Positions 2,990 through 17,410 of a DNA stretch of 64,000 bases are shown one piece after another. How positions within the stretch are numbered: the stretch's first letter is position 1; each line of letters starts with the position of its first letter. A program made the translations under genes and the position numbers. Source of the DNA: Myxococcota bacterium (GTDB lineage: Bacteria; Myxococcota_A; Bradymonadia; UBA7976; UBA1532); contig CAUJDF010000099.1 in assembly GCA_963169045.1 (NCBI GenBank), forward strand, positions 1 through 64,000, written 5' to 3'. The notes beneath the pieces are model-generated. The model ran no database searches, was not told the origin of the DNA, and was given only the letters and a program-made list of their open reading frames with translations.

Positions 2990-4123
2990 TCAGGTGTTCA
3001 ACGACGCGGCGATCCGGGCGTGCAGGGCGCGGACGTCGGCGCGGTCGTGGGCGGACATCGCGAGGGCGTCCGGCATCTCGGACACGAGCGCCGCGCGGTC
3101 CGGCACGCGGTCGATCTTGTTGAGCACGACGATCGCCGGGATCGACGACGCGCCGAGCTCGTCGACGACGCCCCGCGTCACCGCGAGCTGACGCCGCCAC
3201 GCGGGGTCGGCGGCGTCCACCACGAACAGCAGCAGCGAGGCGTCGCGCACCTCCTCGAGCGTCGAGCGGAACGACGCGACCAGCGCGTGCGGCAGCCGGT
3301 CGATGAAGCCCACCGTGTCGGTGACGAGGATGCGCGGCGTCGTCTCGGGGCGCAGCGCGCGCACGGTCGTGCCGAGCGTCACGAACGGCCGGTCGTCGAC
3401 GACCGCGTCGGCGCCGGTCAGGCCGCGCATCAGCGACGACTTGCCGGCGTTCGTGTAGCCGACGAGCGCCACGCGGGGCGCGTCCCGCCGCCGCGCCGTC
3501 CGCTGCGCCCGCGCCGCCTCCACGCCCTCGAGCTCGCGCCGGAGGGCCGCGACGCGCGCGCGGTTGCGCTGCTTCGCCAGCTCGACGTTGCTGTGGCCGC
3601 GCGACGCGCGCCCGCCGCCGCCCTCGCGGTCGCCGAGGCTGCGGTCGTCGCGCACGCGCGGCGTCTCGTACAGCAGGCGCGCGATCTCGACCTGCAGCCT
3701 CGCCTCGGGGGTCCGCGCGCGCTGCTCGAACACACGCAGGATGAGCGACGTGCGGTCGACCACCTCGACGCCGAGCGCCAGGCGCAGGTGGCGCTCCTGG
3801 CCGGGGCTCAGCTCGTGGTCGACGAGCACGAGGTCGACCTCGCCGGCGGCCGCGGGCGTGTCGGCGGGCGCCGGTCCGGCGGCCACCTCGCCGGGCCCGC
3901 CGGTCAGGGCCGCGAGCTCGCGCAGCTTGCCGGCGCCGAGCAGGCTCGGCTCGTTGGCCGTGGGCCGACGCTGCACGACGCGGTGCACGACGCGGATGCC
4001 GAGGCCGGCGGCGAGCCGCTCGAGCTCCGCAAGCGACGCTTCGACGTCGGCGGCGCCGCGGTCCGGCGTGTGGACGGCGATCGACAGGGCGCGCTCCGGG
4101 CGCGCCGAAGAGGGACGGGGCAT
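2990..4123 (-). CDS. hflX: ribosome-associated GTPase HflX
   Basis: This 377-residue protein belongs to the HflX branch of the Obg-HflX GTPases, which bind the 50S subunit and help split or rescue stalled ribosomes. The N-terminal HflX domain includes LLGAGKLREL (61-70) and VDHELSPGQ (101-109). The GTPase domain has G1 GYTNAGKSS (222-230), G3 DTVGF (269-273) and G4 NKID (335-338). A coiled segment around 140-215 links the two, and the C-terminal extension is short. An AGAGGAGG ribosome-binding site precedes the ATG. An Ala/Pro-rich insert at about 80-94 is unusual but does not disturb motifs. It is a single-gene unit here, not next to hfq as in enterobacteria. Confidence 0.96.
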   Translation of the reverse strand: MPRPSSARPERALSIAVHTPDRGAADVEASLAELERLAAGLGIRVVHRVVQRRPTANEPSLLGAGKLRELAALTGGPGEVAAGPAPADTPAAAGEVDLVLVDHELSPGQERHLRLALGVEVVDRTSLILRVFEQRARTPEARLQVEIARLLYETPRVRDDRSLGDREGGGGRASRGHSNVELAKQRNRARVAALRRELEGVEAARAQRTARRRDAPRVALVGYTNAGKSSLMRGLTGADAVVDDRPFVTLGTTVRALRPETTPRILVTDTVGFIDRLPHALVASFRSTLEEVRDASLLLFVVDAADPAWRRQLAVTRGVVDELGASSIPAIVVLNKIDRVPDRAALVSEMPDALAMSAHDRADVRALHARIAASLNT

Positions 4124-4518
4124 GACGGAGCCTCCTCTGGTTCGTTTCCAGGGAAGGCCCGCGGCGCAGGCTCATGGCGGGCGAGGAACGCCCGGCGGCA
4201 CGCGCACCGCGCCCGGGCCTTCCGACGTGTTCGGAAAGCGGGCACGGGAGGCGACGGGCCGCGACGGCGCCTTCAGGGAAGGGGCGTCGCGGACGTCGCC
4301 GCGCTCAGCGCAGCCGGAGGGAGGCGGTCGCCATGGGTGACAGTCTGGTCACCAGGACGCGTCCTGGCAAGTCGAAGTCTCGACGGCGGGCGGCTCGAGG
4401 TCGGCCCGCGCGCGTCGCCGGCGACGACGTTCAGGTCGTCTCTCAAAGCGGCGGCTGGCCAACTCGCATAGGAGTGGCGCCTCACGATGGCGCCAGGCTG
4501 CGGCATGGGCGCTGAGCC
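4124..4518. other. non-coding upstream region of hflX
   Basis: This 395-base stretch lies between the hflX start and the GTGGAC array. It should contain the hflX promoter, but I could not pick a convincing -35/-10 pair. I see no conserved gene in it. Confidence 0.5.
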
Positions 4519-4581
4519 GTGGACGTGGACGTGGACGTGGACGTGGACGTGGACGTCGACGCGCCACGCGCCACGCGCACG
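4519..4581. repeat. GTGGAC hexamer array, left arm of an inverted repeat
   Basis: Six GTGGAC hexamers and one GTCGAC fill 4519-4560. They run into a 24-base arm (4558-4581) containing two GCGCCAC units. That arm is matched at 23 of 24 positions by the reverse complement of 4737-4760. The array therefore forms the left end of an inverted-repeat structure around a broken gene. Confidence 0.85.
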
Positions 4582-4647
4582 AATTCCGCGACGAGCTCCT
4601 CCTTTGTCCGAGGGATCCATCAGGACCCCGGAACCGAGGAGAGCGCA

Positions 4648-4731
4648 GTGCTCGCGCACAAGAAGCTGGACGTCTACCGATGCGCCCTGGAGTTCCTCAC
4701 CATCGCGATTCGGATCGAGATGTGCCGCTGA
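4648..4731 (+). pseudogene. truncated four-helix-bundle (23S rRNA intervening-sequence type) protein
   Basis: A GTG start with an upstream GAGGAG opens a 27-residue peptide: VLAHKKLDVYRCALEFL, a few more residues, then TGA. The HKKLDVYRxxLEFL start is typical, from memory, of S23/four-helix-bundle proteins (PF05635 relatives, also related to the Avd proteins of diversity-generating retroelements), which are usually about 110-130 residues. Everything after the first helix is missing, so this looks like a deletion remnant. It sits inside the inverted repeat formed by the GTGGAC and GTCCAC arrays. The assignment rests on about 17 residues and should be checked by search. Confidence 0.6.
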
Positions 4732-4736
4732 TCCGC

Positions 4737-4817
4737 CGTGCACGTGGCGCGTGGCGCGTCACCGAGCGCGTCCACGTCCACGTCCACGTCGACGTCCACG
4801 TCGACGTCCACGTCCAC
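4737..4817. repeat. GTCCAC hexamer array, right arm of an inverted repeat
   Basis: The arm 4737-4760 is the inverted copy of 4558-4581 (23 of 24 bases). It is followed at 4770-4817 by eight hexamers: six GTCCAC and two GTCGAC. This mirrors the GTGGAC array on the left side of the truncated four-helix-bundle gene. Confidence 0.85.
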
Positions 4818-4832
4818 GAACGCGGCTGACGC

Positions 4833-5018
4833 GTGGCGCCGGGATCGCGCCGGGTCCGACGGCTCTTGCGCGGCGTTGTCGGCGCACTCGAAGAAGGGCA
4901 GACCCTCGGCGAGGTCGGCCGGCGGTTCGGCGTCGACCCGATGACCGCCTGGCGCTGGCGTCGGCACGGCGGACGGGTTCGGTCGAGCCCGAGAAGATGG
5001 GCGGCGTACGGACCGTGA
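4833..5018 (+). CDS. possible small helix-turn-helix protein or transposase remnant
   Basis: A GTG-started 61-residue frame contains LGEVGRRFGVDPMTAWRWRR, which reads as a helix-turn-helix of the kind seen at the N-terminus of transposases and small DNA-binding proteins. The upstream sequence lacks a clear ribosome-binding site and no catalytic domain follows. It lies next to the hexamer array and the 42-bp repeats, so it may be debris of a mobile element. It could also be a chance frame. Confidence 0.25.
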   Translation: MAPGSRRVRRLLRGVVGALEEGQTLGEVGRRFGVDPMTAWRWRRHGGRVRSSPRRWAAYGP

Positions 5019-5050: not shown

Positions 5051-5198
5051 ACTCCGAGCAGGTCCGCGCCGGCCAGAGGCGCCCACCGACCTACTCCGAG
5101 CAGGTCCGCGCCGGCCAGAGGCGCCCGCCGGCCTACTCGGAGTAGGTCCCGACCTGCCCGAGGCGCCCGCGGACGTACTCCGAGTAGGTGTCCGCCGG
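5051..5198. repeat. 42-bp tandem repeat with a 15-bp dyad per unit
   Basis: Three full 42-base units start at 5051, 5093 and 5135, and a partial fourth starts at 5177. The first two differ at two positions; the third is more diverged. Unit junctions carry a 15-bp dyad of the form CCTACTCsGAGTAGG: perfect at 5132-5146, and with mismatches at 5090-5104 and 5174-5188. The 42-base spacing equals four turns of B-DNA, which would place all dyads on one helix face. I see no gene using the repeat; the next gene ends at 5312 on the minus strand. Confidence 0.75.
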
Positions 5199-14500: not shown

Positions 14501-17410
14501 ATGCTGACGAGCCGTCTCGCCTTGTTCGCCGCATGTCTCGCCGTCCCGCTCGCCGCGTGCGAGCGCAGCAACCCCGACCAGGCGTCGATCGGCGACCTGG
14601 ACGCCGGCGCGCCCGACCGAGGGCCGTCCCCATCCGATGCCGGCGGCGATGGGGCGTCGCCAGACGCGGGCCCGATCGCCGACGGGGGCGGCGCCGACGC
14701 GCGCCCGCCCGCCGACGGCAGCGTGGTCCCGGCGCCCGACGGCGACGGGGACGGCTTCGCCGACGCCATCGACGTGTGCCCGGCCGTGGCCGATCCCACC
14801 CAGGCGGATCGCGACCGCGACGGCGTGGGCGATGTCTGCGATCCCTGCCCCGACGGCGGCGAGGACCGCGACGACGACGGCGACGGCGTGCGCCTGTGCG
14901 CGGGCGACTGCGACGACGGCGACGGCGCGCGCTTCCCGGGGGCGGTCGAGCGGTGCAACGGCCGCGATGACGACTGCGACCAGGCGACGGACGAAGGCTT
15001 CGCCGGCCTCGGCGGCGACTGCCGCGCCGGCTTCGGCGCGTGCGAGTCCGCGGGCGCGGTGGTCTGCAGCGAGGACGGCCTCGACGTGCGCTGCGACGCG
15101 GCCCCCGGCGCGCCGCGCGCCGAGACCTGCAACGACCTCGACGACGACTGCGACGGCAACACGGACGAGGGCGTGGCCGACTGCTGCGACCCGGGCGAGG
15201 AGCGCCGGTGCGGCGTCGACATGGGCGCCTGCCGCGTCGGCCACCAGGCGTGCGACGAGCGGCGCGCCTGGGGCCCCTGCGACGCGCCGGGTCCGCAGCC
15301 GGAGCGCTGCGACGGCGTCGACGACGACTGCGACGGCGCCACCGACGAGGGCACGCGCAACGCCTGCGGCGCTTGCGGCCCGGTGCCGGCGGAGGCCTGC
15401 AACGGCGCCGACGACGACTGCGACGGGACGGTCGACGAGGGCGTGCGCAACGCGTGCGACCAGTGCGGGCCGGCGCCGGTCGAGGTGTGCAACGACCGCG
15501 ACGACGACTGCGATGGCACGACCGACGAGGGCGCGCGCAACGCGTGCGGCGAGTGCGGTCCGGTGCCGGCGGAGGTCTGCAACGACCGGGACGACGACTG
15601 CGACGGGCGGGTCGACGAGCACGCGCGCAACGATTGCGGCGAGTGCGGTCCGCCGCCGGTCGAGGTCTGCAACTTCCTCGACGACGACTGCGACGGCCGG
15701 CCCGACGAGGGGGTGCGCAACGCCTGCAACCTGTGCGGGCCCGAGCCGGTCGAGGTCTGCAACTTCGTCGACGACGACTGCGACGGGCGCGCCGACGAGG
15801 GCGTGGCCAACGTGTGCGGCCGCTGCGGCGCCGTCCCCGCCGAGCAGTGCAACTTCGTCGACGACGACTGCGACGGCCGCGTCGACGAGGAGGTGCTCAA
15901 CGCGTGCGGGACGTGCGGCCCGGTGCCCCAGGACTTCTGCAACGGCCGCGACGACGACTGCGACGGCCGCACCGACGAGGGCGTGACCAACGCCTGCGGG
16001 GGCTGCGGCCCGGCGCCGATCGAGCAGTGCAACCAGGCCGACGACGACTGCGACGGCGAGATCGACGAGGGCGCGCCCAACTGCGGCTGCATCCCCGTGC
16101 CGATCGAGCTCTGCAACGGCCAGGACGAGGACTGCGACGGGCGCATCGACGAGGGCCTGTTCGGCTGCTGCCGCCCCGCCGACGAGGTCTGCAACGGCCA
16201 GGACGACGACTGCGACGGGCGCATCGATGAAGGCCTGCTGGCGCCGTGCGTGCGCCTCGTCGGCTCGACCCCGGCGGGTCCGGCGGGGCGCGGGCTCGGC
16301 ACGGTGCTGGCGGCGCTCGGCGACGTCGACGGCGACGGGATCCCCGACGCGGTGGCGGGCGCGCCGGTGGGCGACGGCGAAGGGGACGGCGTGTTCGCGG
16401 TGAGCGGCGCCGACGGCGGCGTGCTGTGGCGGCGCGCCGGCAGCGGCAACTTCGGCGCGGCGCTGGCCGTCGGCGACTTCGACGGCGACACGCTGCCCGA
16501 CCTGGTGGTCGGCGCGCCCGGCGTCCAGTCGCCGGGCGGCGGCCGCGGGGTGATCCGGTTCCTCCGGCGGGACGGCGACGACTGGCTCCAGCTCGAGGCG
16601 GCGCAGGGGCGGCAGATCGGCAACGCCCTCGCCGCGGGCCGATTCGGCGGCCCCGGCGGCTACGTCGACATCGTGGTCGGCGATCCCGAGTTCACCCGTC
16701 GCGACGACAACGGCGAGGCCCGGCGCGCGGGCCGGGTGCAGATCATCGAGCTGACCGCCGACGGGTACACCACGGTCATGAACGTCGTCGGCGCACAGGC
16801 GGGCGACCGGCTCGGCGAGCGCCTGCACGCGCTGCCCGGCTTGGCGGCCGACGCGCTGCTGACGACGGAGCGCGTCACGATCAACCGCCGCGCCGAGCGC
16901 GCGCTGGTGGCGCTCCTCGGCGCCTTCCGCACGGGCGACGCCTTCGGCGTGCTCAACCCGCCCGGCGACACCGGCGCCACGTTCGGCCAGGCGGTCGCCT
17001 TCGGGCGTTTCGGCGGCGGGGCCGCGTACGCGGTCGGCGCGCCCGAGCTCCTGCAGGCCGGCGCTCCCCGACTCTCGGGCACGGTGACCTTCTACGACGC
17101 CTCGATGCAGCGCCTCGGCTACTTCTCGGCCAACGTACGCGACGCCCGCCAGGGGCTCGCGCTGGCGACGCTGCCGCGACCCGCGGCGGCCCACGACCTG
17201 CTGGTCGTCGGCGCCCGCGACCTCGCGCGCGTCCAGCTCGTGTCGCTCGGCGGCGACCCGCACGACGTCGCGGCGCCCGAGGGCGGCGCCGGCTTCGGCC
17301 GCGCCGTCGTCGTCGCCGGCCCGGCGGGCGACGGCAGCTACCGCCTGTTCGTCGGTCACCCCGGTGCCGGCGGCGGCGCCGGCAAGGTGCACGTCTACAG
17401 CGTGAGGTAG
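14501..17410 (+). CDS. MopE-repeat lipoprotein with FG-GAP-like C-terminus
   Basis: This 969-residue protein starts with a lipobox signal (LAAC, Cys20) and an Asp/Pro/Gly-rich spacer. Next come thrombospondin-3-like calcium motifs (DGDGDGFADAIDVC, DRDRDGVGDVC) and thirteen MopE-type modules, C-x3-DDDCDGxxDEG. The last 370 residues are FG-GAP-like repeats (GDVDGDGIPDAVAGAP, GDFDGDTLPDLVVGAPG) that would fold as a beta-propeller. MopE repeats take their name from a copper-binding outer-membrane protein of methanotrophs; metal binding here is inferred from the acidic clusters. It is divergent from sucA across 58 bases and ends 4 bases from the convergent aldolase-type gene. Confidence 0.88.
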   Translation: MLTSRLALFAACLAVPLAACERSNPDQASIGDLDAGAPDRGPSPSDAGGDGASPDAGPIADGGGADARPPADGSVVPAPDGDGDGFADAIDVCPAVADPTQADRDRDGVGDVCDPCPDGGEDRDDDGDGVRLCAGDCDDGDGARFPGAVERCNGRDDDCDQATDEGFAGLGGDCRAGFGACESAGAVVCSEDGLDVRCDAAPGAPRAETCNDLDDDCDGNTDEGVADCCDPGEERRCGVDMGACRVGHQACDERRAWGPCDAPGPQPERCDGVDDDCDGATDEGTRNACGACGPVPAEACNGADDDCDGTVDEGVRNACDQCGPAPVEVCNDRDDDCDGTTDEGARNACGECGPVPAEVCNDRDDDCDGRVDEHARNDCGECGPPPVEVCNFLDDDCDGRPDEGVRNACNLCGPEPVEVCNFVDDDCDGRADEGVANVCGRCGAVPAEQCNFVDDDCDGRVDEEVLNACGTCGPVPQDFCNGRDDDCDGRTDEGVTNACGGCGPAPIEQCNQADDDCDGEIDEGAPNCGCIPVPIELCNGQDEDCDGRIDEGLFGCCRPADEVCNGQDDDCDGRIDEGLLAPCVRLVGSTPAGPAGRGLGTVLAALGDVDGDGIPDAVAGAPVGDGEGDGVFAVSGADGGVLWRRAGSGNFGAALAVGDFDGDTLPDLVVGAPGVQSPGGGRGVIRFLRRDGDDWLQLEAAQGRQIGNALAAGRFGGPGGYVDIVVGDPEFTRRDDNGEARRAGRVQIIELTADGYTTVMNVVGAQAGDRLGERLHALPGLAADALLTTERVTINRRAERALVALLGAFRTGDAFGVLNPPGDTGATFGQAVAFGRFGGGAAYAVGAPELLQAGAPRLSGTVTFYDASMQRLGYFSANVRDARQGLALATLPRPAAAHDLLVVGARDLARVQLVSLGGDPHDVAAPEGGAGFGRAVVVAGPAGDGSYRLFVGHPGAGGGAGKVHVYSVR
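15308..16027. repeat. eight in-frame 90-bp tandem repeats in the MopE lipoprotein gene
   Basis: Units begin at 15308, 15398, 15488, 15578, 15668, 15758, 15848 and 15938, each exactly 90 bases (30 codons). Each encodes one DDDCDG-DEG module plus an N-A-C-x2-CGP linker. Shorter, diverged copies follow to about 16250. The regular length suggests growth by unequal recombination or slippage, so copy number may vary between strains. Confidence 0.9.

Follow-up and report, generated by a model that had tools for sequence, protein, structure and literature searches.

A probable dead copy of a small dispersing element: a broken S23 gene within mirror-image hexamer arrays in a Myxococcota genome

What is a gene of 27 codons doing between two hexamer arrays that mirror each other? 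The question is raised by a locus in a 64,000-nt stretch of DNA, here called the window, from a Myxococcota bacterium (GCA_963169045.1, contig CAUJDF010000099.1, positions 1 to 64,000). A preliminary description made from the letters alone took it for a broken four-helix-bundle gene inside inverted GTGGAC/GTCCAC arrays. In our reading the feature is probably a dead copy of a dispersing element, small and of the ribosomal RNA (rRNA) intervening sequence (IVS) type, that lives outside rRNA genes. In its complete form a long hairpin holds a single S23/IVP gene in its loop, the arms being mirror arrays of a short unit, 6 and 7 nt here and mostly 7 nt elsewhere.

The remnant reads VLAHKKLDVYRCALEFLTIAIRIEMCR from the GTG at 4648 to the TGA stop at 4731. 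It is too short to be matched by Pfam or NCBIfam, so the intact copies were used for identification. At the DNA level it aligns with the intact gene of copy C70, of which about the first 23 and the last 4 codons are retained, and relative to which about 249 nt (83 codons) are deleted in frame. The C70 gene is S23/IVP (PF05635, E 5e-19; TIGR02436) and has a solved homologue, PDB 2gsc (E 2.5e-12). This open reading frame (ORF) is complete in C70 and C80 and broken in the window copy, and the element encodes S23 only.

The arms 4518–4581 and 4737–4800 are inverted and match at 89% over 64 nt. Inverted sub-arms match at 97% over 32 nt (4530–4561 and 4787–4818) and at 100% over 20 nt (4542–4561 and 4799–4818), and a 7-nt array, ACGCGCC, is present on the inner side of each hexamer array. 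The broken gene in inverted arrays is thereby borne out. Its extent, given earlier as 4519–4817, holds for the feature (4518–4818) and not for the boundaries: the homology to copy C61 spans about 4440 to 4864, and the inner ACGCGCC arrays belong to the structure. In one uniform scan the element is the top inverted repeat of the window with a score of 40–43, the runner-up scoring 19 and the median 10. The RNA of 4510–4830 has a predicted fold of −204 kcal/mol (z = −11.6).

The source genome, a GC-rich draft of 9.0 Mb, holds about ten related copies plus C80. The whole gene is retained in C70 and C80 and part of it in C33, and blastn with the window element finds more pieces at C61, C73, C101, C60, C36, C74 and C8. 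C49 has an array without a gene, resembling the C80 type, and C91 gives a weak match. Mapping on C70, where the element occupies about 27–669 and the gene 208–543 of L036:501-1220, shows C33, C101, C36, C74, C8 and the window copy to be derived by deletion or truncation, several with a junction at GTCCGAGGGAT. In C61 the gene segment is on the window's strand while both outer ends are reversed, so the core is inverted between the arms; C36 likewise starts with an inverted right end. Among the copies, then, both internal deletions and a flipped gene segment are seen. Hence the idea of a hairpin-forming cassette with a lost gene body is upheld by the intact C70 and C80, the many deletion derivatives, the fold and, below, the empty sites in relatives of other S23 loci.

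Four GTSSAC units in a row, the strict array, are confined in the 9.0-Mb genome to the window copy and C73, and the reversed control pattern gives no hit. The arrays of other S23 loci are of other units. The outer ends are not alike between the own-genome subfamilies. Those of the C70 type were found in the genome search only with element copies, and the candidate that they are independent carrier transposons is rejected for this type, as they are never seen without the element. Around C70 (L036, about 527–540 and 1163–1180) a possible 5-nt direct repeat, GTGAG, is seen by eye on both sides; at C33 it is not seen. Upstream of two copies, at L038 and L040, lies similar sequence that by eye resembles the beginning of an IS5-type transposase gene (DDRKVL..GIIFVLRSGIPWE).

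Chance or an assembly artefact, with an ORF arising at random in a GC-rich tandem repeat, might be suspected since the draft genome is GC-rich and several copies sit at contig ends. It is already refuted by the window ranking, by the intact homologous copies elsewhere in the genome and by the same architecture in complete plasmids and complete genomes. We give it practically no credence.

Is this architecture a peculiarity of one genome? Among the first 31 S23 loci, taken from this and related genomes, more than half have gene-flanking inverted repeats well above the shuffled null, and many of these repeats are short tandem arrays with a locus-specific unit. Then 80 named loci, spread over many phyla, were chosen independently and by conserved protein motifs only; 79 of them were scored. 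For an inverted repeat across the gene, a score of 14 or more is seen in 52% of the 79 loci and in 0.5% of 852 control windows drawn from them; for a score of 20 or more the figures are 23% and 0.1%. Of 457 other ORFs of these loci, 1.5% have flanks that score 14 or more. So S23 genes elsewhere do carry such flanks, the point on which the preliminary description had staked its claim.

The arrays have common features. Arms score at least 14 at 78 of 142 loci. The repeat period of 53 periodic arms is 7 in 40, 8 in seven and 6 in two. On the sense strand the upstream arm has more G than C in 72 of 78 and more C than G in 6 (p 2e-15). The unit varies from locus to locus and both arms of one locus agree. 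Similarity of the S23 proteins tracks a shared unit (Mantel r 0.26, p 0.0005), mainly for proteins of more than 0.6 similarity. At L048 and L069, one orthologous site in two species, the units differ and the arms still match within each, a sequence pattern that points to concerted change of the arms.

The closely similar S23-family proteins at L063, L064, L065 and L068 are without arrays and serve as natural negative controls. Apparently these loci hold a distinct paralogue that stays in place, perhaps as a stable cellular gene. The sequence downstream of this paralogue (RGYHGLTVWNRAVDLVE) is similar in all four.

Moreover, the element disperses, as its copies and empty sites record. Four S23 loci in other bacteria have both filled and empty states at orthologous positions, the comparison that had been suggested as a check. 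In Nostoc C052 the gene is between two plasmid genes, where the Nostoc C057 plasmids (about 91–95% identical) have a 52-nt spacer instead. At this plasmid site N. edaphicum has the element too, and Nostoc ATCC 53789 has GGGAACA-like arrays without the gene. Anabaena 90 carries the element in the cas6-cas4 gap of a type I-D CRISPR (clustered regularly interspaced short palindromic repeats) operon, and a 99% identical Dolichospermum plasmid is without it. N. edaphicum has another between nrdB and nrdA, missing in Calothrix NIES-4105, and the L048/L069 sites are empty in G022 and G031. Most insertions are in short intergenic gaps, several within operons.

The exact ends are only partly definable from the 95–99% identical Nostoc and Anabaena sites. 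This is because the empty allele L165 has 43 nt absent from the filled allele, and because the Dolichospermum plasmid has a different palindromic insert of 245 nt at the cas6-cas4 site (L164 1320–1564; ends GTAGGTTGGGTT...AACCCAACCTAC). That gap, in type I-D CRISPR operons, is a possible insertion hot spot, since Pseudanabaena galeata has another S23 element there. The two elements, at L163 1623–2398 in Anabaena 90 and L169 1092–1771 in P. galeata, have different repeat units.

Genomes of the order of Dyella have the gene in the accB-accC interval. Arms flank it on both sides in some of them, and the upstream array alone is present in others. Here it is possibly domesticated. This accB-accC S23 gene occurs in many genomes of that order (L244–L256; G131, G227, G105 and others).

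Arrays without the gene are also dispersed. Two genomes with S23, G028 and G037, have many dispersed GAGCTTT arrays, some in close inverted pairs, and the same search finds none in relatives without a full S23 gene. The unit flanking the S23 gene of G028 is its dispersed unit. In a survey of 200 genomes from the order of Dyella, three successive GGGAATN units occur in 41 genomes (at most 209 hits) and three GGTTTNN units in 25, and no genome has at least 5 of both. S23 is present in 39 of the 49 genomes with at least 5 hits of either unit versus 38 of the 151 others (odds ratio 11.6, p 1.5e-11, shared ancestry being ignored). The genomes whose S23 flank holds several GGGAAT units have 9–98 such arrays each.

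Such repeats have a history of their own. Rehm et al. 2015, on the heptamer repeats of Xanthomonas and Nostoc, described GGGAATC arrays with 70–75 convergent inverted pairs per Xanthomonas genome; they saw no association with mobile elements, drew no link to S23 and left the origin unexplained (PMC4692102). The GGGAATC unit also flanks S23 genes in Dyella and other genomes of its order. For Geobacter metallireducens, 49 elements made of four GGGACCG heptamers have been published with no known function (PMC2700814); they could be in the same class as the S23 array elements.

In a rival reading the arrays came first: slippage and repair templated by hairpins produce them in intergenic DNA, and S23 is a passenger surviving best in such hairpins with no part in their spread. 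Gene-less arrays are indeed far more numerous than S23 genes, ten array-rich genomes are without S23 and the published repeats are unassociated with mobile elements (PMC4692102). However, the unit flanking S23 in a given genome is also the one dispersed there, similar S23 proteins have units in common, the polarity relative to the gene is fixed at 72 to 6, and the strict arrays of the source genome are only in element copies. We consider this explanation rather unlikely, while deserving attention. The random occurrence of arrays without the gene had been raised before as a possible refutation. Gene-less arrays exist, yet their occurrence is not random: they share the unit of the S23 flank in their own genome (G028; the order of Dyella) and are enriched in S23 genomes.

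Alternatively, an unrelated transposase may move a palindrome that carries S23 by chance, as in a miniature inverted-repeat transposable element (MITE), a non-autonomous DNA transposon. This would suit G037, whose inverted GAGCTTT arrays (L184–L193, L203) are in the arms of a palindromic MITE-like element of about 190 nt with many copies and GGCTCTGTTTAAC-like ends, the ends being given as GGCTCTGTTTAACGAGTGTGGATAT. It would also suit the possible GTGAG duplication at C70, the one candidate, seen by eye. On the other hand, neither a consistent duplication nor a terminal repeat is found, the subfamilies of the source genome differ in their outer ends, and unrelated MITEs do not explain S23 inside mirror arrays across many phyla. 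This makes a MITE an unlikely answer.

The rRNA IVS is among the closest known systems. In Coxiella burnetii (PMC4990558), the 23S rRNA IVS has an S23 ORF in a hairpin with a 28-bp stem that is cut by RNase III. Tandem heptamers GACAGAT, in strain-dependent number, immediately precede the ORF and lie where RNase III cuts. Our element shares the length of a few hundred nt, the S23/IVP ORF (C70, C80), the complementary termini around it that make a long stem, the upstream tandem repeats and a gene body that can be deleted or decay. The free-standing elements have the same plan as the Coxiella IVS and are read therefore as the same kind outside rRNA. They differ in lying outside rRNA, in being multi-copy, and in their longer mirror-array arms and many gene-less derivatives. 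No Rfam family matched in the window and the element is not within an rRNA gene. So the IVS link drawn earlier holds in kind and not for the location of this copy.

REPINs, the hairpins of repetitive extragenic palindromic (REP) sequences, and their REP-associated tyrosine transposases (RAYTs) also combine inverted short hairpin repeats in extragenic space with an associated gene and many gene-less derivatives sharing the repeat (Bertels & Rainey 2011, PMC3116915). Our arms are tandem arrays of 6–8 nt rather than REP sequences and the gene is inside the hairpin. Neither a REP nor a RAYT is found in the element; the rest of the genome was not searched for RAYT.

The retroelement link suggested before survives as distant protein homology only. 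S23 and Avd of the diversity-generating retroelements (DGRs) are homologous and share a fold family, the 2GSC-like four-helix bundle (PMC10053308), and L069 gives weak Avd hits below the NCBIfam cut-off. A decayed DGR part that has lost its reverse transcriptase might thus be proposed. Unlike a DGR, the element has no reverse transcriptase, template repeat or variable repeat, with no search for template and variable repeats made, and the two RVT_1 hits of the genome are on C72 and C29, contigs without an element copy. We regard the DGR reading as highly improbable and reject it for the element, which is without a reverse transcriptase.

How might the IVS-type element spread? The array hairpin would form in RNA or single-stranded DNA. 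RNase III may cut the arms and trim the transcript, so that insertion into operons or rRNA would be tolerated. The S23 protein may bind the array hairpin and aid a host replication, copying or repair process in spreading the element, and gene-less array pairs would be non-autonomous offspring. Each arm would template the other, keeping the arms matched and also yielding flips and internal deletions. S23 is not known to have any catalytic domain, so its likelier role is that of a binding partner rather than that of the enzyme moving the element. The mobility proposed earlier is supported in the sense of dispersal, to which the copies and empty sites attest, and not in the sense of any one mechanism.

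Several observations weigh against an S23 element that spreads in this manner. The S23 protein has no nuclease, recombinase or polymerase signature, and no consistent target duplication was found. Strong arms are missing in about half of the surveyed S23 loci, 10 of the 49 array-rich genomes have no S23 hit, and the statistics of the S23-array association leave shared ancestry out. In G037 the arrays are inside the MITE-like palindrome, so another enzyme may move them. Additionally, the copies C73, C101, C60 and C36 are cut off at the ends of their contigs, which is expected if a repeat breaks the assembly, so their structure is uncertain.

The features of the window copy are collected in Table 1. 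It sits upstream of a gene for a GTPase with HflX-type domains (2990–4123, minus strand), with a DUF1269 gene on its other side. Beside it, at 5051–5189, is a 42-nt tandem repeat (ACTCCGAGCAGGTCCGCGCCGGCC..., 3.3 copies, 87%). At 15307–16234 there are long tandem repeats of 90, 180 and 270 nt; their units can be read as protein repeats rich in Asp and Cys (CDGxDDDCDG-like).

Table 1. Parts of the element in the window and the basis for each
Feature	Position	Strand	Basis
Outer end of the element on the left; in reverse orientation it forms the right outer end of copy C61	4440–4500	.	Window 4440–4494 = L035 922–868, 85%
Left hexamer array, unit CGTGGA/GTGGAC, 7.3 copies	4518–4561	+	Tandem-repeat search, 97%; inverted-arm search
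Inner 7-nt array ACGCGCC, extending the left arm	4562–4581	+	Also a distinct 7-nt array in C70 and C33
S23/IVP four-helix-bundle gene remnant, GTG start, 27 codons and stop, junction near 4720	4648–4731	+	Comparison with the intact C70 gene (L036)
Inner 7-nt array of the right arm, complement of 4562–4581	4737–4759	-	Inverted repeat of 13 nt, 100%
Hexamer array of the right arm, 8.3 copies of CGTCCA, mirroring the left array	4769–4818	-	Tandem-repeat search, 90%; inverted-arm search
Right outer end; equals left outer end of C61, in opposite orientation	4819–4864	.	Window 4804–4863 = L035 704–645, 88%

Taken alone, the window copy is ordinary. What is unusual is the general pattern that it brings to light, undescribed within the literature searched. 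Our search, with bioRxiv and most subscription journals outside it, found no report joining four-helix-bundle or S23 genes with flanking inverted or tandem arrays. To that extent the general architecture and its link to the orphan heptamer repeats are new. A tentative proposal, to which we give somewhat less than an even chance, is that S23/IVP proteins are trans-acting partners of widespread mobile elements with heptamer-arm hairpins, that the rRNA IVSs are copies landed in rRNA and that the orphan heptamers of Xanthomonas, cyanobacteria and others are non-autonomous offspring.

The function and mobility of S23 genes and IVSs and the origin of heptamer arrays have been separate open questions for decades. 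The polar architecture common to many phyla joins the two. It may explain the orphan repeat arrays that have puzzled microbiologists.
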